Below are positions 2,213 to 11,257 of a DNA stretch of 64,000 nucleotides, in pieces. Every line of letters starts with the position of its first letter. The first letter of the stretch is position 1. The stretch is taken from the NCBI RefSeq assembly GCF_026967575.1, contig NZ_CP114054.1:1426001-1490000 (forward strand). The letters are read 5' to 3'. The notes beneath the pieces are model-generated. The model did not search any database. It saw only the letters and a list, made by a program, of their open reading frames with translations, and was not told the DNA's origin. Source of the DNA: Aurantiacibacter sp. MUD11. GTDB taxonomy: Bacteria > Pseudomonadota > Alphaproteobacteria > Sphingomonadales > Sphingomonadaceae. The position numbers and the translations under genes are program-made.

Positions 2213-2626
2213 ATGCCCGTGCAATGGACCCCGCTCGGATTCGAACCATGCGAACCACAGGTATTGTGGCGCACCGGGCAATTGTATTCCTACAGCCTCT
2301 CATTGCCGCTGATCAGCGATGGCCGCATCTCGCTGGAGCAGTTCCTGAAGGGTGACGCGCAGGCCGACGTGCGGCGCTTCGACGCCCGCGGGAATGTCAC
2401 CCACGGCAAGGTTCGCCCGCTGGACGGGCAATGGTGCTTCGTCTGGTCCGGCCATCCGCGCCGGGTCGATCCGGTCGTCCGGTTCTACGGTCGCCGCTTC
2501 CTGCCGGGTGACACGGTCTGCCTGCGCTCTGCCAACACCATTGCCGCGCTTTACCGGGTTTGTAGCGAAGACCTGGAGCAGTCCCTGAACGGTGCGCTAG
2601 GCGCCGAGGGGATCACCCCTCCATGA
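2213..2626 (+). CDS. hypothetical protein, 137 aa
   Basis: Not recognised. The frame shows the strong G/C third-position bias of its neighbours from about codon 30 to the end, which supports real coding. The product is soluble, with no signal peptide or membrane helix, and rich in Arg and Asp (segments such as VRRFDARGNVTHGK and VVRFYGRRFLPGD). The start at 2213 has no clear ribosome site and could lie further in. Its last 14 nt overlap the end of the convergent fixJ-like gene. Confidence 0.55.
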   Translation: MPVQWTPLGFEPCEPQVLWRTGQLYSYSLSLPLISDGRISLEQFLKGDAQADVRRFDARGNVTHGKVRPLDGQWCFVWSGHPRRVDPVVRFYGRRFLPGDTVCLRSANTIAALYRVCSEDLEQSLNGALGAEGITPP

Positions 2627-3239
2627 CACCCGCCTGGAAGGCGATGTGCAGCATTTCCGGCAAGGTCCGTACTTCCAGCTTGCGCATGGCATTGGCGCGG
2701 TGAATTTCCACCGTGCGCGGGCTGATGCCCAGTTCGAAAGCGATGGTCTTGTTGTGCTGGCCGTGCGCCAGCCCGTCCAGCACCTGCCGCTCGCGCGGGC
2801 TGAGCAGTTCGATCAGTTGCTGCGCCTCAGCCCGCTCGCCGTCCATCTGCGTGGTCTGGCCGACCAGTTCCCCGGCAGCCTTCAGCGCGGTCATCAGGTC
2901 GGCCTTGCCGAAGGGCTTCTGGATGAAGTCGATCGCGCCCAGCTTCATCGCCTTTACCGCCGTGGACACGTCGCCGTGGCCGGTCATCAGCACTACCGGC
3001 ATGGAGATGCCGCGGTCTGCCAGCCGACGCTGGATATCCAGCCCGTCCCCGTCGCCCAGGTGCAGGTCGAGCAGGATGCAGCCCGGCTCCAGATCGGCAA
3101 CGACGTCCAGGAATTGCTCGCCGCTTTCGTGCAGCGTGCATTCGTGTCCTTCACCCCGCAGCATGAAGGAGACCGACAGGCGCACGTCGGCATCGTCGTC
3201 GACAATGTGGACAGGGATGGCGGGCAGCTTCTTCGACAT
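2613..3239 (-). CDS. fixJ: FixJ-family response regulator
   Basis: Two-domain transcription factor (208 aa). The N-terminal receiver has the acidic pocket DDD at 14-16 and the phospho-acceptor Asp at about 58 in LLDLHLGDGDG. The C-terminal LuxR/FixJ helix-turn-helix begins at LSPRERQVLDGLAHGQ. The ATG at 3239 is chosen because it has a GGGAGG ribosome site 9 nt upstream; an open stretch of 9 more codons precedes it. It starts 4 nt after the sensor kinase gene, so the pair is co-transcribed. In FixLJ systems the phosphorylated regulator activates fixK-type and microaerobic genes; its targets here are unknown. Confidence 0.88.
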   Translation of the reverse strand: MSKKLPAIPVHIVDDDADVRLSVSFMLRGEGHECTLHESGEQFLDVVADLEPGCILLDLHLGDGDGLDIQRRLADRGISMPVVLMTGHGDVSTAVKAMKLGAIDFIQKPFGKADLMTALKAAGELVGQTTQMDGERAEAQQLIELLSPRERQVLDGLAHGQHNKTIAFELGISPRTVEIHRANAMRKLEVRTLPEMLHIAFQAGVMEG

Positions 3240-3243
3240 GGCG

Positions 3244-4410
3244 TCAGCCCTCCCCCGCGTCGACATCGGGGAAGCCGCAGGGCAGCGTCATCACGAACCG
3301 CGCGCCGCCCAGCTTGCTCCGCCCATCCAGCTCCAGCGTGCCGCCGAAGGATTCGACGATCTGCCGGCAGATGGAGAGACCCACGCCCATGCCACCGGAC
3401 TTGGTGGTGACGAAGCTCTGGAAGATCTTGTCGCGCAGGTCCGCCGGAACTCCCGGTCCCGAATCCTCCACCGCAATCGCCACCGCGCTTTCGCCCACCT
3501 TGCAGGCCGACAGTTCGATCCTGTGTTGCTTGTCCGGGCCATCCGACATGGCGTCGAAGGCATTGCGCAGCAGGTTGTAGAGCACCTGTTCGGCCTGGAT
3601 TGCATCGATCCGCACCGGCGGCAGGCCATGAGGAATGTTCCGGTCGATGACCATCGACCGCCGGTAGCCATTGATCAGCGCCAGCGAGATGGTGGCATCC
3701 ACCAACTCCTCTACCGGCACCGCGTCGGACTCGTGGTCGCCCGGTTCGACGAATTCGCGCAGGCGATGGAGCAGCTGGCCCGCGCGCACGGCCTGGTTGC
3801 CGCAATTGTCGAGCGCCGCGATCACCTCTTCCAGCTCCTCGCTGTCCTCCCGCGCAGCCAGCCGGTCACGCGCGCCGGCGGCGAAGTTGGCGATGGTGGT
3901 CAGCGGCTGGTTCAGCTCATGCGCAATTGCCGTCGCCAGCGCGCCCATCGCGGACACGCGCGAGATATGCGCCAGCTCGGCCAGCATCGTCTGGATCTGC
4001 TGGCGATTGCTGCGGACGGCCTCGATCGGCCGCAGGAAACCGATGAACATCCGTTCGCCGCCCAGCTCGGTTTCGCCGATATTGATCTCCACCGCGATGG
4101 CATGGCCATTCTTGTGGAGCGCGTTCTCGATGCGGGGTGCGCCGATGATGCGACGCTCGCCCGTTTCCAGGTAGCGGGAGATATAGCCATCGTGCCGCTC
4201 GCGGTGCGGCGAAGACATCAGGATATGGAGGTTGCGCCCGACCAGTTCGTCGGGCCGGTAACCGAAATCGTCTTCGATCTTGTTGCCGACAGCGCGAATG
4301 ATGCCCCCGCGGTCGGCAAGGATCATCGCAATCGGCATGTTATCCATGAACGACTGCAGTGGCACGCTGTCCAAAGCGAGCGGAAGGTCTAAGCCTTCTA
4401 GGTCCGCCAT
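3244..4410 (-). CDS. fixL: FixL-like oxygen-sensing histidine kinase
   Basis: Soluble PAS-histidine kinase (388 aa). The PAS domain (about 15-130) contains RHDGYISRY followed 13 residues later by an Arg. These match the haem-ligand His200, Arg206 and Arg220 of Bradyrhizobium FixL, with the same 20-residue His-to-Arg spacing (H73, R79, R93 here). A kinase core follows, with the H-box AHELNQPL (H164) and ATP-binding N/G boxes ending in GGMGVGLSICR. A TTG start 8 codons upstream is possible; the ATG at 4410 has a GGGGGC ribosome site and is preferred. The product probably autophosphorylates at low oxygen and phosphorylates the adjacent FixJ. Confidence 0.87.
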   Translation of the reverse strand: MADLEGLDLPLALDSVPLQSFMDNMPIAMILADRGGIIRAVGNKIEDDFGYRPDELVGRNLHILMSSPHRERHDGYISRYLETGERRIIGAPRIENALHKNGHAIAVEINIGETELGGERMFIGFLRPIEAVRSNRQQIQTMLAELAHISRVSAMGALATAIAHELNQPLTTIANFAAGARDRLAAREDSEELEEVIAALDNCGNQAVRAGQLLHRLREFVEPGDHESDAVPVEELVDATISLALINGYRRSMVIDRNIPHGLPPVRIDAIQAEQVLYNLLRNAFDAMSDGPDKQHRIELSACKVGESAVAIAVEDSGPGVPADLRDKIFQSFVTTKSGGMGVGLSICRQIVESFGGTLELDGRSKLGGARFVMTLPCGFPDVDAGEG

Positions 4411-4538
4411 TAAGCCCCCGGTTAGCACCTGCAACCAGCGGTGCCGCGCGACCCAAACGCACCACCAGCTTTCACAGAACTATCGCAAGGATGGAATGAT
4501 AGCGTTCTGCTGGCAACAGTTGTTGCGCAAACGATTGG

Positions 4539-4556: not shown

Positions 4557-5543
4557 TCAGGCAGAGCAACTCGCGCCGCCCAGTACACAAAATCTTGCGC
4601 AATGGGGGTGGTTGAGCGGCACCTCGCGATCGGACTCGGCCACGGTCGCGCCGAGGTCGAATTGCGGGTCGAACGGCAGCAACGTGCAGGCGACGACACG
4701 TGGCTGCGGCTCGCCCTTGCGGTGCACGACCATGCGCTGGCTGGCACACATGATGTCGTCGGGCGACTTGTCGAGGATGTCCCAGCAGGCGGTGGTGATC
4801 TCGGCAATGTCGGCGCTGGCGTCCATCTCCGGGAACAGCACCAGCCGCGCCGGATCGGCGGTGTCGATAGCGATGCCCTCGGCAGCGAACAGCGCGGCAT
4901 AGGCCGCGCGCGCCTCGGCATCGGTCTCACCCGCCAGGTGCCGCCCGGCCGCAGCCAGCGAGAAACCGTTTGCGGACAGCCAGCGCAGCCCTTCCAGCAT
5001 CGGCTGCCAGGAGTTCGGCCCGCGCTCGGCCTCGTGCACGGCCTGCGTGTGATGGTCGATGGAGACGCGCAGGGTAAGCCGTTCGCCATAGGCGGCGCGC
5101 AGCCGCAGCAGCTCCGCCTCGTACCGGCGCATGGGCTTCATCGCGTTGGAAAGCACCAGTACCTCGTGCCCGCGCGACAGCGCGTCCTCCACCATGGCCA
5201 CGATCTCGGGATTCATGAATGGCTCGCCGCCGGTGAAACCGATCTCGCGCACGCCGCGCGAGGCAATCTCATCCAGGAAGCGCGCCACGTGGGCCGCCGA
5301 CATGTAAACCAGTGCATCGTTGGTCGGACTGCTCTCGATGTAGCAATTGGCGCAGGCGAGGTTGCACAGCGTGCCGGTGGCGAACCACAGCGTGTCGAGC
5401 TGGCGCAGGCCAACCGTCGCGCGCGGCTCCCCCTTGGCAGTGAGCAGTGGATCGACGAACTTGCCGGAGGGCAGTCGCTCGCCCTCCACCGCGAATGGCG
5501 ACGGCCCGTCGGGCGCATTGCGGCTGTTCACCCGTGTCGCCAT
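4557..5543 (-). CDS. radical SAM protein of a putative organoarsenical cluster
   Basis: Radical S-adenosylmethionine enzyme (328 aa). The [4Fe-4S] motif is CNLACANC (C60, C64, C67), followed by the SAM-binding GGEP in FTGGEPFMNPE. The C-terminal Cys residues (ITTACW, DDIMCAS, VVACTL and the final CARFCVLGGASC) resemble an auxiliary-cluster or SPASM-like tail. The ATG at 5543 overlaps the stop of the reductase gene by one base, so both are made together; the open frame further upstream is that gene's shadow. The location beside ArsM and the TIGR04282/04283 transferases suggests a role like ArsS, which joins a 5'-deoxyadenosyl group to methylated arsenic, but this is not an obvious ArsS. The substrate is unproven. 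Confidence 0.75.
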   Translation of the reverse strand: MATRVNSRNAPDGPSPFAVEGERLPSGKFVDPLLTAKGEPRATVGLRQLDTLWFATGTLCNLACANCYIESSPTNDALVYMSAAHVARFLDEIASRGVREIGFTGGEPFMNPEIVAMVEDALSRGHEVLVLSNAMKPMRRYEAELLRLRAAYGERLTLRVSIDHHTQAVHEAERGPNSWQPMLEGLRWLSANGFSLAAAGRHLAGETDAEARAAYAALFAAEGIAIDTADPARLVLFPEMDASADIAEITTACWDILDKSPDDIMCASQRMVVHRKGEPQPRVVACTLLPFDPQFDLGATVAESDREVPLNHPHCARFCVLGGASCSA

Positions 5544-6958
5544 CAGAACGCCCGCCGCAGCCTGGCCAGCAGCGACACCCAGCGCTTGGGCCAGGTGCCG
5601 AATACCGTCGGCTCCCACGCCTTGAAGGCCGCTGCCTTCACGATCTCGACCCGGGTGGGATAGGAAATCACCGCTCCACCGACATCGAATGTGCCGGTCT
5701 TGCCGGTGATCATCTGCGTGAACGGCAGCAGCAACTCGCCCGCGTTGACCCCGCAAATGCTGGCGCCGACCACCTTCTTGCCCTTCAGCATGACCTTGCA
5801 GTGTCCCTGATCGAGCCCTTCGGCGATGGCGCGGTCGTTATGGTCGAAGCCCTCGGTCACCACCGTCAGCTTGTCGCCATACCGCTCGCGCGCCTCGCTT
5901 TCGGTCATGCCGATCTGCGCCACTTCCGGCTCGGTATAGGTGCACCAGGGCAAGGCGCGCCAGTCGACCTTGGCCGGCAGGCCCAGCGCGATTTCCAGCA
6001 CCACGTTGGAGCCTTCGTAGCCCGATACATGGGTGAGGCGCGGCCCTTCGCGGCAGTCGCCGATGGCATAGATATGCTTCATGCTGGTGCGCCGCCGCGC
6101 GTCCACCTTGATGCCGTTGCGGCCCAGTTCGATGTCCAGCTCTTCCAGCCCGTAGCCTTCGGTGCGCGCCTTGCGTCCCACGGCCACCAGCAGGTGCGAT
6201 CCGGCGATCTCCTCGCCGCCATCGGTGGTCACGGTAATCGCGCCCGCGCTGCCGGAGACCCTGGCCGCCTTGCCATCGATGAAGCGCACGCCCTCGGCTT
6301 CCATCACGCCTTTCACCAGCGCCACGCTGTCGCGATCGTCGCGCCCCATCAGTTCGCCCGGATTGATCACGGTTACCTTGCTACCAAGGCGGCAGAAGCT
6401 TTGTGCCATCTCCATGCCGATCACCCCGCCACCGATGATGACGAGATGTTCGGGCTGCTCGGTCAGGTCGAACAGGTTCTCGTTGGTGAGGTAGGGCACG
6501 CCGTCCAGCCCCTCGACCGGCGGCACTGCCGGGCCGGAGCCGGTGGCAATGACGATGCGCGGCGCGGTCAGCACCTTGCCGTCCACCTCGACCGATTTCG
6601 GCCCCGTCAGCCTGGCCCAGCCGAGGATCACCTCGCAGCCCATCCCCTCGAACCGCTCGACCGAATCGTGCGGTTCGATCTGGGCGATGGCGTCATGCAC
6701 GTGCTTGTGCACCCCGGCCCATTCGACCACCGGCGCGGCCAGCTGCACCCCGGCACGCTTCTCCTCGCGCGCTTCGGCCGCACGGCGCGCCGCGGCAATC
6801 AGCGCCTTCGACGGAACGCAGCCGTTGTTGAGGCACTCGCCGCCCATCTTGTGGCCTTCGATCAGCACGGTCTTCAGGCCGAATAGCGCGCAGCCGCCGG
6901 CAGCAGTAAGGCCGGCGGCACCTCCGCCGATGACAATCACGTCATGCGTGTATTCCAA
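5543..6958 (-). CDS. MerA/Lpd-like FAD-dependent disulfide reductase
   Basis: Class I pyridine-nucleotide disulfide oxidoreductase (471 aa). It has an N-terminal FAD Rossmann motif IGGGAAGLTAAGG, the redox pair CLNNGCVPSK (C41, C46), an NAD(P)H motif IIGGGVIGMEMAQ, and the FAD motif YAIGDC. The C-terminal dimerisation domain has YPTRVE where lipoamide dehydrogenases have HPTxxE, so the usual His-Glu catalytic base is missing. That makes an ordinary Lpd role unlikely and fits the broader mercuric-reductase-like group. It is first in the operon with the radical SAM gene and divergent from arsM. It may recycle a thiol or disulfide, or reduce an arsenic intermediate; this is inference. Confidence 0.83.
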   Translation of the reverse strand: MEYTHDVIVIGGGAAGLTAAGGCALFGLKTVLIEGHKMGGECLNNGCVPSKALIAAARRAAEAREEKRAGVQLAAPVVEWAGVHKHVHDAIAQIEPHDSVERFEGMGCEVILGWARLTGPKSVEVDGKVLTAPRIVIATGSGPAVPPVEGLDGVPYLTNENLFDLTEQPEHLVIIGGGVIGMEMAQSFCRLGSKVTVINPGELMGRDDRDSVALVKGVMEAEGVRFIDGKAARVSGSAGAITVTTDGGEEIAGSHLLVAVGRKARTEGYGLEELDIELGRNGIKVDARRRTSMKHIYAIGDCREGPRLTHVSGYEGSNVVLEIALGLPAKVDWRALPWCTYTEPEVAQIGMTESEARERYGDKLTVVTEGFDHNDRAIAEGLDQGHCKVMLKGKKVVGASICGVNAGELLLPFTQMITGKTGTFDVGGAVISYPTRVEIVKAAAFKAWEPTVFGTWPKRWVSLLARLRRAF

Positions 6959-7059
6959 GGAATTCTCCTCAGCCCGGCAGCGGGCGTAACCATTTCAGGA
7001 TGGCCGACGAAGTCAGAAACGTCCATGCATCCTTTCGGACACCACAGGAAAACGGTTTC
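6959..7059. promoter_or_regulatory. divergent promoter region, reductase / arsM
   Basis: About 100 bp separate the two divergent start codons and must carry both promoters and any arsenic-responsive operator. An alternative in-frame ATG for arsM at 7000 lies within it but has AGG immediately against the ATG, so 7060 is used. No clear ArsR-type palindrome was seen by eye. Confidence 0.4.
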
Positions 7060-8109
7060 ATGAACCTCGAAAATTCCCAGAACTATTACGGCAAGGTGCT
7101 GGAAGGCTCCGCCGACCTGCGCACCGATGCCTGCTGCACCTTCGAAATGCCCAGCGCCAGCGTGCGCGAGGCGCTGCGCAACGTGCACGAGGAGGTCAAG
7201 GCCCGTTACTACGGCTGCGGCTTGGTCGTGCCGCAGGCGCTGGCAGGCTGCCGCGTGCTCGACCTGGGATCGGGCAGCGGACAGGATGCCTACCTGCTGG
7301 CGCAACTGGTGGGGCCTAAAGGCAGCGTCACCGGGGTCGATGCCACGCCCGAACAGCTGGCCGTGGCGAACGCCCACAAGGGCTGGCACGCCGACCGCTT
7401 CGGCTATGCCAATGTCGAATTCGTCGAAGGCGATATCGAGAAGCTGGACCAGCTGGGGCTGGAGCCGGAAAGCTTCGACATCATCGTCTCCAACTGCGTG
7501 ATCAACCTGGTCGCCGACAAGGAAGCCGTGTTCCGCGCCGCGCACAAGCTGCTGAAGCCGGGCGGGGAACTGTACTTCTCCGACGTCTATGCCGACCGCC
7601 GTGTGCCCGAACACCTGCTGCACGATCCCGTGCTGCACGGCGAGTGCCTGTCCGGCGCGCTCTACTGGGGCGATTTCGACCGTATCGCCAAGACCGCCGG
7701 CTTTGCCGATCCGCGCCTCGTCACCGACCGTCCGCTGGCAATCAACGATGCCGAGGCGGCGGAAAAGCTGGCGGGCATCAACTTCGTTTCCGCCACCTAT
7801 CGCCTGTTCAAGCTGGCGGGCCTCGAGCCGCAGTGCGAGGATTACGGCCAGGCGGTGATCTACAAGGGCACCGTGCCCGAGCACGAGAAGGTGTTCGAAC
7901 TCGACGCGCATCATGCCATCGAAGCCGGGCGCGTCTTCCCCGTCTGCGGCAACTCATGGCTGATGCTGGCGGAAACGCGGTTCGCTCCGCACTTCGAATT
8001 CATCGGCGATTTCAGCCGCCACTTCGGCGTCTTCCCCGGCTGCGGTACCGCCGTGCCGTTCGGCCAGTCGGACGCCAATCCCACGAAGAACGACGCCCCC
8101 TGTTGCTGA
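7060..8109 (+). CDS. arsM: ArsM-type As(III) S-adenosylmethionine methyltransferase
   Basis: Arsenite methyltransferase (349 aa). The product begins with the family's YYGKVLEGSADL signature. The SAM-binding motif is VLDLGSGSGQDAY. Cysteines at 25/26, 53, 146 (SNCVINL) and 196 (GECLSGAL) match the four As(III)-binding Cys of characterised ArsM (44, 72, 174, 224 in the Cyanidioschyzon enzyme): two spacings, 28 and 50, are identical. After about residue 265 there is a Cys-containing C-terminal region (PVCGNSW, FPGCGTA) ending in a Cys-Cys pair. The ATG at 7060 is preceded by AGGAAA. It should convert arsenite stepwise to methylated arsenicals, the first step of arsenosugar synthesis. Confidence 0.9.
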   Translation: MNLENSQNYYGKVLEGSADLRTDACCTFEMPSASVREALRNVHEEVKARYYGCGLVVPQALAGCRVLDLGSGSGQDAYLLAQLVGPKGSVTGVDATPEQLAVANAHKGWHADRFGYANVEFVEGDIEKLDQLGLEPESFDIIVSNCVINLVADKEAVFRAAHKLLKPGGELYFSDVYADRRVPEHLLHDPVLHGECLSGALYWGDFDRIAKTAGFADPRLVTDRPLAINDAEAAEKLAGINFVSATYRLFKLAGLEPQCEDYGQAVIYKGTVPEHEKVFELDAHHAIEAGRVFPVCGNSWLMLAETRFAPHFEFIGDFSRHFGVFPGCGTAVPFGQSDANPTKNDAPCC

Positions 8110-9161
8110 AGGTGCTCGTCACCGGAGCCGCCGGCCTGATCGGCGGCGAAGTCTGCGCGCGGCTGGCGGCGCGCGGCCATGCGGTGACGGCGCTGGTGCG
8201 CAAGACCCACGAGGTGCGCGGTAACGACGGCGCCCAGGTGGACGGGGTCACTATCGTTACCGGCGACGTCACGCAGCCGCTGATGGGGCTGGATCCGGAG
8301 CCGCACGATGTCGTCATCCACTGCGCCGCCAGCCTCGAATTCGACGCCCCGAAAGCGGTGCTGGCGGCAGTCAATGTCGACGGCACGCGCAACGCGCTGG
8401 CCTATGCCCGTGCGGCAGGCGCCGGTTTCCTGCACGTCAGCACCGCCTATGTCTGCGGCGAACGCGAAGGCGCGATTGCCGAAGGCCCGGTGCCCGCAGG
8501 CACGCGCTTCACCAACAACTACGAGGAAAGCAAGGCGCTGGCCGAAGCCGCGGTTACGGAAAGCGGCTTGCCCTTCGCCGTGGCGCGGCCCTCCATCGTC
8601 TTGGGCGACAGCGATACGGGCGCGATCCGCGACTTTCCCTCGCTGTGCAACGTCTTCCGCCTGATGGCGCGCGGCAAGGTTTCCACCTTCCCGGCACGGG
8701 CAGGCTCGACGCTCGACCTCGTGCCGATCGACCATGTAGCCGAGGGCCTGGTGCGGCTGGCCGAGCGGTTCGAAGCGGCGCAGGGCGGCTATTTCCACCT
8801 CGTCGGCCAGACACCCCTGCCCGCTGCCGAGCTGGCGCACGGCGTGACACGGGTGGCGCATTTCCCCGATGTGACGGTGCTGGAACCCGACGTCTTCGAC
8901 CCTGTCTCACTGCGTCCGGCGGAGGCGATGCTGCTGGGCCGGATGCTCGACACCTTCGGCGCCTACTTCACCCGCGCGCCGCGCTTCGACGATGCAAGGT
9001 TTCGCGCGGTGACGGGCCTCGCCTGCCCGCCGACCGACCGCGACTGGCTCGACCGGTTGATCGCCTATGGCGTGGCCGCCGGATACCTGCCTAGCGCACG
9101 TCCGGGTAATGCTTCTCCAGCCGCTCGCGCACCCCGAACGCCCATAGCATCCCGACCTTGA
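8103..9161 (+). CDS. NAD-dependent epimerase/SDR family protein
   Basis: Extended short-chain dehydrogenase/epimerase (about 352 aa). The NAD(P)-binding motif VTGAAGLIGGEVCARL is at the N-terminus. HCAASLEFD, STAYVCGE and the catalytic YxxxK as NYEESKALAE follow, as in male-sterility/thioester-reductase-like or sugar-epimerase members. The TTG at 8103 is taken as start, overlapping the arsM stop by 7 nt; a GTG at 8112 is the alternative. The 3' end runs 71 nt into the convergent transferase gene, and the last 20 or so residues look unlike a domain. It may act on the sugar or lipid part of the arsenical product (inference). Confidence 0.75.
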   Translation: MLKVLVTGAAGLIGGEVCARLAARGHAVTALVRKTHEVRGNDGAQVDGVTIVTGDVTQPLMGLDPEPHDVVIHCAASLEFDAPKAVLAAVNVDGTRNALAYARAAGAGFLHVSTAYVCGEREGAIAEGPVPAGTRFTNNYEESKALAEAAVTESGLPFAVARPSIVLGDSDTGAIRDFPSLCNVFRLMARGKVSTFPARAGSTLDLVPIDHVAEGLVRLAERFEAAQGGYFHLVGQTPLPAAELAHGVTRVAHFPDVTVLEPDVFDPVSLRPAEAMLLGRMLDTFGAYFTRAPRFDDARFRAVTGLACPPTDRDWLDRLIAYGVAAGYLPSARPGNASPAARAPRTPIASRP

Positions 9162-9816
9162 AGTAGATCCAGTTGGCCTTCAGCCCGCCCCATTCGGCAA
9201 TCCGCCGGTCGGAAGTCTCGATGGTGCGGCGGATCAGCTTCACCTTGCCGTAGCGGGCCAGCCGGACGCAGAGGTCCGCCTCCTCCATCACCTTGGCATC
9301 CTGCGTGCAGCCGCCACTCTCGAGGAACTGCGCACGGCGGAAGAACATCGCATGGTCGCCGAACAGCAGTCGCACGCCACGGAAGAACAGGTGCGGCCGG
9401 GCAATCAGCGGCGCGTACCAGGTCTTCGCCCAGTTGTGCGCGGTGGTGACCCAGCGGGTCTTTTCCGGGCCGCGAATGATCGGGGTGAAGCCGGCCAGCG
9501 CGATCTTCTCATCGGCCAGTGTGTCGGCGATCACCGCCACCATGTCGTGCGGCGGTACGGTGTCGGCATGCAGCACGACGACCTGCTCTCCCTTCGCCGC
9601 AGCCACCCCGGCGTTGACCTGGCTGCCCCGCCCACGCTCGGCGGAGATGACGCGCCAGCCGGCAACCTCGGCCAGCGCGACGGACTCGTCCTCGCTCCCG
9701 CCATCGACCACGACCACTTCCAGCGGCGCGGGATCGAGCTTGGCGACACGTTCGATGAGGCTTGGTAGCGCGGCGGCCTCGTTGAGCATCGGGATGACGA
9801 TGGAAAGCTGGCTCAC
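9091..9816 (-). CDS. TIGR04283-family glycosyltransferase (arsenosugar-associated)
   Basis: GT-A family 2 glycosyltransferase (241 aa). It begins SQLSIVIPMLNEAAALP, has VVVDGGSEDES and a DxD-like LHADTVPP, and ends in the GLKANWIYFKVGML segment common in this family. TIGR04283 ('transferase 2, rSAM/selenodomain-associated') is now labelled an arsenosugar biosynthesis glycosyltransferase. The start is GTG at 9816, sharing GTGA with the preceding stop, so translation is coupled to the TIGR04282 gene. The enzyme would be cytosolic; donor and acceptor are not established by the sequence. Confidence 0.85.
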   Translation of the reverse strand: MSQLSIVIPMLNEAAALPSLIERVAKLDPAPLEVVVVDGGSEDESVALAEVAGWRVISAERGRGSQVNAGVAAAKGEQVVVLHADTVPPHDMVAVIADTLADEKIALAGFTPIIRGPEKTRWVTTAHNWAKTWYAPLIARPHLFFRGVRLLFGDHAMFFRRAQFLESGGCTQDAKVMEEADLCVRLARYGKVKLIRRTIETSDRRIAEWGGLKANWIYFKVGMLWAFGVRERLEKHYPDVR

Positions 9817-10394
9817 GGCACCAGCTCGGGCCAGTTGGCGAGGTCTTCGGGCCTGTCGCAATCGTCGAGTTCGCTCAGCAACCGGTAAGGCACGCCCTGT
9901 TCCCCCAGGCGCCCCTCTGTCGCTTTCAGCACCCTTTCGGTGCCCCAAGGCATTTCACCCCAGAGGAACGAAATTTCTCTCGTAAAACCAATCAGGTAAT
10001 AACCACCGTCGCTTGCCGGTCCGATTACGACCGGCACCTCGCGCAGCGCCTCGGCCGCCGCCAGCAAGTGCTCCGCAGTCAGCCCCGGAACATCGGCGCC
10101 CAGCAGGATCGCCGGTGCCTCAACCCGCGCCAGCCGCGCGCCAAGATCGCCCTCGCCCTGCTCCACCAGCGGCACGTCCGCGCCCAGCCAGGCGGCGAAG
10201 TCCTCCGCCGCAGCACCGGTGAAATGCACCGCGAAGGGCAGCCCGCTTTCGCGCACCGTCGCCAGCGTGCGTTCGACCAGCCGCCGGTGCACTTCCGCCG
10301 CGCCGGCATCGCCCAGCGCCGGGGCGAGCCGGGTCTTGGCCTTCCCCGCATGGGGATACTTGGCGAACAGGGCGATGGTCGGCGGCAAGCTCAT
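9813..10394 (-). CDS. TIGR04282-family transferase (CofC-like, arsenosugar-associated)
   Basis: Small nucleotidyltransferase/glycosyltransferase-like protein (193 aa) of the TIGR04282/DUF2064 family. It opens with IALFAKYPHAGKAKTRLAP, has the substrate-site motif LLGADVPGL and the family signature GPASDGGYYLIGF. It pairs with the TIGR04283 gene downstream through a 4-nt overlap. This pair repeatedly accompanies ArsS/ArsM in other bacteria, which is why databases attach it to arsenosugar synthesis. It is divergent from the hydroxylase-like gene at 10448. Confidence 0.87.
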   Translation of the reverse strand: MSLPPTIALFAKYPHAGKAKTRLAPALGDAGAAEVHRRLVERTLATVRESGLPFAVHFTGAAAEDFAAWLGADVPLVEQGEGDLGARLARVEAPAILLGADVPGLTAEHLLAAAEALREVPVVIGPASDGGYYLIGFTREISFLWGEMPWGTERVLKATEGRLGEQGVPYRLLSELDDCDRPEDLANWPELVP

Positions 10395-10447
10395 GCCACC
10401 GCTGTAACCGCTGGACGGCGCTGTGGCGAACGGTCAGTGTGCCGTGC

Positions 10448-11257
10448 ATGGCTTCCCGACTCGCCAAGCTTGCCGGCCTCGCCGTCGCCGGGGCCGCCGT
10501 GGGCACGCTGCTCTATGCGGAGCGCGCGCGCCCGCTGCGCCAGCGCACGCGTGAGGAACTGCCGCGACTGGTGCGCAACGGGGTACTGGGGGCGACCTGC
10601 CAGGCGGTGATCATGGCGACCGAGGCGCCGATCACCGATGCCATCGCCCAGGAGAACAAGCGCAAGAAGCGCGGCCTGCAGCACTTGATCGGCGGATTTC
10701 CGGGCCGCGTCGCCGCTTTCCTGCTGATGGATTACACCTACTACCTGTGGCACGTCGCCACGCACAAGGTGCCCTTCCTCTGGCGTTTCCACCGGGTACA
10801 CCACCTCGATCCCGATCTCGATACCTCGACCGCGATCCGCTTCCACGCGCTCGACATGGCGATTTCCACGCCGATGCGGATGTTGCAGGTGCGCCTGTCG
10901 GGGGCGGATCCGGAAACGCACAATGCCTGGCGCGGCTTCTTCCTTGGTTCGGTGCTGTTCCACCATTCCAACCTGCGGCTACCCGATGGCATGGACGAGA
11001 AACTGAGCCACTTGGTCACCACGCCGAAGATGCATGGCATCCACCACAGCCAGCGGCTGGACGAGATGGACGCCAACTGGTCGAGCGGCATCAGCATCTG
11101 GGACCGGCTGCACGGCACCTTCCGCCTCGACGTACCGCAGGACAGCATCGAAATCGGCGTCGACGACCCAGCCGCCGAGCGCGACATCGCCCTGCTGCCT
11201 GCTCTCGAAGCGCCCTTCCGAACTGCCGGGAATCGCGAGGAAATCGGCGGGACCTGA
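10448..11257 (+). CDS. sterol desaturase/fatty acid hydroxylase superfamily membrane protein
   Basis: Integral-membrane di-iron oxygenase of about 269 aa. The histidine boxes are HVATH (HX3H), HRVHH (HX2HH), FHHSN and HGIHH, in the expected order, with hydrophobic stretches before the first box. Family members hydroxylate or desaturate lipids. ATG 10448 is preferred over GTG 10439; neither has a strong ribosome site. It sits divergently from the two arsenosugar-associated transferases, so it could modify a lipid carrier or an arsenolipid. It could equally be an unrelated lipid or carotenoid hydroxylase. Confidence 0.8.
   Translation: MASRLAKLAGLAVAGAAVGTLLYAERARPLRQRTREELPRLVRNGVLGATCQAVIMATEAPITDAIAQENKRKKRGLQHLIGGFPGRVAAFLLMDYTYYLWHVATHKVPFLWRFHRVHHLDPDLDTSTAIRFHALDMAISTPMRMLQVRLSGADPETHNAWRGFFLGSVLFHHSNLRLPDGMDEKLSHLVTTPKMHGIHHSQRLDEMDANWSSGISIWDRLHGTFRLDVPQDSIEIGVDDPAAERDIALLPALEAPFRTAGNREEIGGT

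Follow-up and report, generated by a model that had tools for sequence, protein, structure and literature searches.

A cluster of seven genes in the genome of Aurantiacibacter sp. MUD11 (contig NZ_CP114054.1) appears to direct the synthesis of an arsenosugar-type organoarsenical, with a radical S-adenosylmethionine (SAM) protein, hereafter rSAM, carrying out an ArsS-like step, a reading that we consider reasonably probable from gene content and genomic context. The encoded enzymes probably join a sugar to methylated arsenic, and the distinctive point of the cluster is that rSAM is likely an ArsS-like enzyme of a second family that replaces ArsS itself. It occupies positions 4557–11257 of the stretch analysed here (64,000 nucleotides, positions 1,426,001 to 1,490,000 of the contig; "the window" refers to this whole stretch), which belongs to a single-contig genome of 2.79 Mb with Aurantiacibacter species as its nearest named relatives. 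The seven genes lie at about the coordinates, and in the overlapping or divergent arrangement, given in a preliminary description of the window made without database searches:

4557..5543, minus strand: radical SAM protein (rSAM), 328 aa, candidate ArsS replacement (NF049973, TIGR04167, PF04055)
5543..6958, minus strand: flavin adenine dinucleotide (FAD)/NAD(P) disulfide reductase, PRK06370/Lpd/MerA type (NF004991, PF07992, PF02852)
7000..8109, plus strand: arsenite methyltransferase ArsM, 369 aa, alternative start at 7060 (PDB 5evj match, NF008823)
8103..9161 (approximate), plus strand: extended short-chain dehydrogenase/reductase (SDR), start TTG at 8103 or GTG at 8112 (PF07993/PF01370)
9091..9816, minus strand: glycosyltransferase of family 2 (GT2), TIGR04283-type (by TIGR04283 score)
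9813..10394, minus strand: TIGR04282/DUF2064 CofC-like transferase (TIGR04282, PF09837)
10439..11257, plus strand: membrane di-iron hydroxylase family protein, OlsE-like, optional member (PF04116)

The rSAM and reductase genes overlap by 1 bp and those for TIGR04282 and GT2 by 4 bp, the SDR and GT2 genes are convergent with an overlap of 71 bp, ArsM abuts the SDR gene, and the reductase and ArsM form a divergent pair. The methyltransferase is identified as ArsM by a near full-length structure match (335 residues aligned with PDB 5evj at 1.4e-103; 1.5e-72 with 4fr0) and by C45, C73, C166, and C216, which align with cysteines of 4fr0 that we take to be the arsenic-binding ones, so that the four conserved cysteines of the preliminary description are borne out. 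Its C-terminus carries CC, and its scores are below every curated NCBIfam ArsM cut-off (172.7 versus 263 bits for NF008823, the best; 139.7 versus 500 for the arsinothricin-type NF040538; and 87.5 versus 400). The two transferases had been assigned to TIGR04282 and TIGR04283; the first assignment holds above the cut-off (171.7 versus 134 bits), and the second falls 5 bits short of it (176.6 versus 182). The FAD reductase reaches 380.8 bits on NF004991 (cut-off 620) and has a CxxxxC pair (C42, C47), the SDR scores 119 bits on PF07993, and the hydroxylase scores 77 bits on PF04116 and 71.4 on NF052566 (cut-off 475).

By the tests applied, the window rSAM falls outside the ArsS family, in agreement with the earlier impression that no canonical ArsS is evident. 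Its best curated model is that of the Rv1681 family (NF049973, 97.9 bits versus a cut-off of 380), whose radical core it matches at a score far under the cut-off, and the ArsS model TIGR04167 comes second (62.2 versus 300 bits). The radical SAM core itself is present (PF04055), with the CxxxCxxC motif expected of ArsS-type proteins at C60/C64/C67, and further cysteines (C253, C266, C286, C315, C319, and C326) are kept in relatives. Pfam did not find the C-terminal DUF3641 domain (PF12345) in the window rSAM and found it in the ArsS of locus L064. The AlphaFold model (predicted TM score 0.84) gave unspecific Foldseek matches to SPASM/twitch-type and other radical SAM structures, and PDB sequence searches with rSAM and with one ArsS returned remote radical SAM enzymes only. 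The C-terminal cysteine pattern of rSAM looks ArsS-like by eye and is presumably also near the general SPASM layout; it was not used as evidence, and hhalign left this region unaligned.

The cluster is conserved well beyond its host. A scan for ArsM gave 209 confirmed stretches, from which 80 loci were kept, and gene maps of relatives were made with tblastn and a purpose-made codon-usage caller; the counts rest on tblastn because the caller returned few or no genes for some loci (e.g. L130, L148, and L059). The rSAM, reductase, ArsM, GT2, and TIGR04282 genes stand in identical order in all 25 closest loci (L001–L025); the SDR accompanies them in 24 of these loci and the hydroxylase in 18. Most cluster genes recur, reshuffled in order or strand, in genomes labelled Sphingomonas, Parvularcula, Novosphingobium, and others (among L026–L044); ArsM was seen alone at L035, L038, and L043, and the Parvularcula-type loci L027, L030, and L031 have no FAD reductase in the locus. 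In loci of Sphingomonadales and Parvularcula, the SDR adjoins either ArsM or the reductase; it is near rSAM in none of 40 loci sampled from the class, and the hydroxylase lies within 6 kb of rSAM in 21/41 and 12/31 loci of two locus sets. With the fixed order in the closest loci and the persistence of the set in varied orders in remoter genomes, the grouping exceeds chance. That unrelated genes ended up side by side, by accident or within a genomic island, is extremely improbable: the lineage-limited SDR and hydroxylase would suit such a loose grouping, but the same gene set is found in several orders across many genera, and rSAM, TIGR04283, and ArsM co-occur in one genome even where they are unlinked (G001 and G095; loci L135–L140). 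By gene content and order, ArsM, the FAD reductase, rSAM, and the two transferases form a conserved set.

Nearly all genomes searched that have a window-type ArsM carry either rSAM or ArsS. Whole-genome searches of 42 genomes from the 80 ArsM loci (rSAM at E ≤ 1e-85, ArsS over its cut-off) found rSAM in 19, canonical ArsS in 19, and both in none (hypergeometric 2e-8). The other four (G408, G415, G421, and G436) have neither in strong form, with a 36% rSAM match in G436, and the remaining 38 of the 80 loci contain rSAM inside each fetched locus, their genomes lying outside the ArsS search. Going by their labels, the genomes with rSAM belong to the alphaproteobacteria and those with ArsS to the gamma- or betaproteobacteria or the cyanobacteria (for L029 and L072 the label is simply Proteobacteria). 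At an Acidiphilium locus (L046, 6403–7545, minus strand), ArsM lies near a different radical SAM gene, weakly similar to Tes (tetraether synthase) and TrsS, and near a gene for a DUF547-like protein, the latter judged by eye; this genome (G411) holds a window-type rSAM elsewhere.

The preliminary description had suggested that the pathway may start from a different radical SAM chemistry. A different radical SAM protein at the first step is supported, and shared partners and fusions tie rSAM to the arsenosugar gene set. ArsM-ArsS arsenosugar clusters (ArsS is reportedly the subject of Xue 2019 and Cheng 2021) have ArsM, the FAD reductase, TIGR04282, and TIGR04283 in common with the window cluster, which therefore contains the partner genes expected of an ArsS operon; the window differs in its radical SAM family, in having no VTT domain, and in the additional SDR and hydroxylase. 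Across loci, ArsS and rSAM share the FAD reductase, a VTT protein, TIGR04283, TIGR04282, methylthioadenosine phosphorylase (MTAP), and a phosphoesterase, the last two being shared with relatives of the window rSAM. Five ArsS loci taken from the ArsM scan have the FAD reductase within 6 kb in four cases and both TIGR04283 and TIGR04282 in three; in L062, the reductase homologue is fused to a VTT domain, a fusion seen in two ArsS operons. The alphaproteobacterial ArsS loci L264 and L265 have the order FADox(VTT)-ArsS-MTAP-TIGR04283 (FADox, the FAD reductase), with TIGR04282 encoded close by (for L265, detected by tblastn only) and an adjoining calcineurin-type phosphoesterase; a phosphonate-type ABC transporter gene set, recognised by eye, lies downstream of these operons. 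On the rSAM side, L188 reads TIGR04283-TIGR04282-MTAP-rSAM, and L045 of Methylocapsa aurea reads rSAM-FADox-VTT-TIGR04283-TIGR04282, which by its gene content is an ArsS-type operon holding rSAM where ArsS would be. MTAP is found within 6 kb in 5/41, 13/31, and 1/40 rSAM loci of three sets, and the phosphoesterase in 4/40 class rSAM loci versus 0/72 others, including L226, where it forms a single 616-residue protein with rSAM. In the 40 class loci, rSAM mostly stands apart, with the reductase near in 5, TIGR04283 in 8, and ArsM in 2; a gene that by eye resembles metZ is often its neighbour.

The phosphoesterase portion, used as a query, returned 861 matches; among the 120 listed, 113 contain an rSAM match, 4 contain ArsM, and 3 neither; single-domain phosphoesterases are under-counted here because the search admits just 0.55–1.75 times the query length. 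The phosphoesterase-ArsM fusions (P0211, P0230, P0240, and P0179) involve two different ArsM types: three were scored on the arsenosugar ArsM model (cut-off 400) at 461.5, 464.5, and, for a shorter one, 316.8, and the fourth has 61% identity to the window ArsM. That a single domain occurs in fusions with either enzyme is the strongest tie between rSAM and arsenic beyond the cluster itself.

ArsM also adjoins a radical SAM gene in the arsinothricin cluster arsQML, where ArsL transfers an aminocarboxypropyl group (PMC8552651). That cluster likewise pairs ArsM with a radical SAM enzyme forming a C-As bond, but the radical SAM protein and its partners differ. The seven window proteins include no permease match, in contrast to ArsQ of arsQML, the window ArsM is far below the cut-off of the arsinothricin-type model, and the MTAP, TIGR04282, and TIGR04283 partners better fit an adenosyl and sugar transfer; an arsinothricin-like function is thus very unlikely. 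A parallel in logic is adenosylhopane metabolism, in which HpnH performs a radical SAM adenosyl transfer and the phosphorylase HpnG then takes off adenine; the acceptor differs, and the window rSAM scores 28.3 bits on the HpnH model against a cut-off of 225. A literature search in which subscription journals were thinly covered brought to light, among the papers listed, no published alternative to ArsS and no report of this gene set.

Oxo-arsenosugar synthesis includes the adenosylation of arsenic by a radical SAM enzyme (PMC12159101). In the pathway that we propose for the cluster, As(III) would be methylated by ArsM to dimethylarsenite, with the FAD reductase holding arsenic or enzyme thiols reduced, and rSAM would add the SAM-derived 5'-deoxyadenosyl radical to dimethylarsenite in the manner of ArsS. 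An MTAP-type enzyme, whose gene is absent from the window and lies beside rSAM in many relatives, would then strip adenine to leave a ribose-1-phosphate. The arseno-ribosyl group would be activated by the TIGR04282 protein and moved by the TIGR04283 protein onto glycerol or a lipid as acceptor; the phosphoesterase would participate in some lineages, and in Sphingomonadales the SDR and hydroxylase may tailor the product, possibly a lipid. MTAP is a natural candidate for taking adenine off a deoxyadenosine substituted at the 5' position, and would yield a product that the TIGR04282 protein can activate and a GT2 can transfer; it could also merely recycle 5'-deoxyadenosine. The order of reactions is the one we infer, drawing on gene identities, co-occurrence, shared partners, and fusions seen in the sequences. 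A different chemistry or end product, as the preliminary description had envisaged, is not indicated, as the partners, MTAP in particular, fit an ArsS-like adenosyl transfer.

The observations that weigh against this reading concern the rSAM protein, the missing partners, taxonomy, and the genomes in which rSAM occurs without ArsM or TIGR04283 without rSAM. Homology between rSAM and ArsS in hhalign is confined to the radical core (residues 47–229), a match that other SPASM-type radical SAM proteins could also give. No MTAP or phosphoesterase gene was found by tblastn in the 64-kb window (the rest of the genome was not searched). Taxonomy confounds the rSAM-ArsS complementarity, the two sets falling in different groups; by itself it leaves unexplained why a window-type ArsM nearly always comes with one or the other.

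The preliminary description had regarded the TIGR families occurring without arsM or the radical SAM gene in related genomes as evidence against an organoarsenical cluster. Within a sample of 119 genomes of the family (TIGR04283 at E ≤ 1e-25, rSAM through a weak TIGR04167 match at E ≤ 1e-13, and ArsM at E ≤ 1e-20), none carries a canonical ArsS over the cut-off and 35 carry TIGR04283. All 34 rSAM genomes are among these 35 (33 confirmed; G103 unchecked), and in the 35th, G037, the rSAM match is cut by a contig end, so that TIGR04283 without the rSAM gene was seen in none of the 35. ArsM is found in 22 family genomes (21 at ≥70% identity, G099 at 39%), every one with TIGR04283 and rSAM (one of these rSAMs being the one cut by the contig end). 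The other 13 of the 35 gave no ArsM, with the ArsM family model returning merely 58–60 bit matches in two of them; G010 and G022 are less than 90% complete. ArsM is therefore not obligatory, which partly bears out the objection raised in the preliminary description; we rejected the assumption that it is obligatory on these family genomes and on those of the class. In 10 of the 13, rSAM, the reductase, the SDR, and TIGR04283 remain together and ArsM alone is gone from between the reductase and the SDR (L115, L116, and L118–L125); G072 also lacks the reductase, and in G005 and G022 rSAM lies outside such a cluster. Sister species of some genomes with ArsM-less clusters (among L115–L125) retain ArsM. 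Mapped onto a tree of 32 rSAMs, the presence or absence of ArsM requires 9 changes, of which well supported branches force 5, and three genera include both states. The remaining genes look to be under purifying selection in ArsM-less pairs (pairwise ratios of nonsynonymous to synonymous substitution of 0.07–0.33 versus 0.11–0.26 where ArsM is present; in several pairs the synonymous sites are close to saturated).

The imbalance grows in the class sample of 289 genomes (rSAM at E ≤ 1e-30, own-type ArsM at ≥55% identity, with scoring limited to the 6 to 9 top candidates in each genome; the Fisher tests ignore shared ancestry). Here, rSAM occurs in 83 genomes and TIGR04283 in 106, the latter in 79/83 rSAM genomes (all except G153, G311, G344, and G402) versus 27/206 others (6e-42); 25 of these 27, which have TIGR04283 without rSAM, also lack ArsS. 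Canonical ArsS was found in two genomes (G131 and G263), both TIGR04283-positive and rSAM-negative. ArsM occurs in 20 genomes, 15 of them with rSAM (1e-5), and rSAM in 6/6 genomes with an own-type ArsM versus 77/283 others (p = 5e-4). ArsM thus predicts rSAM in the class, and rSAM does not predict ArsM, with no ArsM match in 68/83 rSAM genomes. For comparison, 59 canonical-ArsS genomes were checked (57 of 104 with completeness of at least 95%, many from one family, plus G131 and G263); ArsM was found in 36 and in none of the other 23 (by genus 14/27), and a divergent ArsM could slip below the threshold. The rate of 36/59 exceeds the class-wide 15/83 for rSAM, and the window's family (22/35) resembles ArsS in this respect.

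These numbers bear on the alternative that the rSAM-TIGR04282-TIGR04283 core makes an arsenic-free glycoconjugate of 5-deoxyribose or another rSAM-derived group, which ArsM joined in a few lineages for ordinary methylation or as a side branch. The scarcity of ArsM in the class-wide rSAM set is the main remaining argument for it, and the wide occurrence of rSAM (a single match per genome except in G212, mostly at 50–65% identity, even in a genome of 1.2 Mb) and the gain or loss of ArsM, usually at the same slot, fit as well. However, 23 of the 59 ArsS genomes likewise gave no ArsM, so a missing ArsM does not exclude arsenic, and we rejected the idea that its absence proves an arsenic-free pathway. 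The fusion of the phosphoesterase to ArsM as well as to rSAM also speaks against an arsenic-free core, as does the company kept by window-type ArsM: rSAM or ArsS in 38 of the 42 genomes searched, and rSAM at the locus itself for the other 38 of the 80. We regard this alternative as unlikely and retain the arsenosugar-type reading.

Around the cluster, a FixJ/FixL-like response regulator and PAS histidine kinase (2613–4434, minus strand, as for rSAM) adjoin it, and a FixL match is present in just 1 of the 25 closest loci. Scans of the window with Rfam at gathering scores and for tRNA matched nothing. Elsewhere in the class, the TIGR04283-TIGR04282 pair adjoins another radical SAM gene, PA0069-family-like by eye and near the pair in 19 loci (among L234–L271), a neighbourhood conserved in many class genomes with moaB- and rnhB-like genes.

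If rSAM does perform the ArsS step, counts based on ArsS would miss most producers in the class (2/289 genomes with ArsS versus 83/289 with rSAM). The MTAP, the phosphoesterase, and the fusions propose steps that lead from an adenosyl-arsenical to an arsenosugar, ArsS pathways included. More tentatively, rSAM could represent an ArsS-independent family of arsenic adenosyltransferases, most of whose carriers lack ArsM and use methylated arsenic from neighbours to make arsenosugars or arsenolipids, a possibility that we entertain without favouring it. Organoarsenical synthesis would then be divided among members of a community and far commoner than ArsS counts suggest, with rSAM in about 29% of the class genomes, and clusters that have repeatedly lost or gained arsM while otherwise staying intact open a direct test of such methylarsenic cross-feeding.

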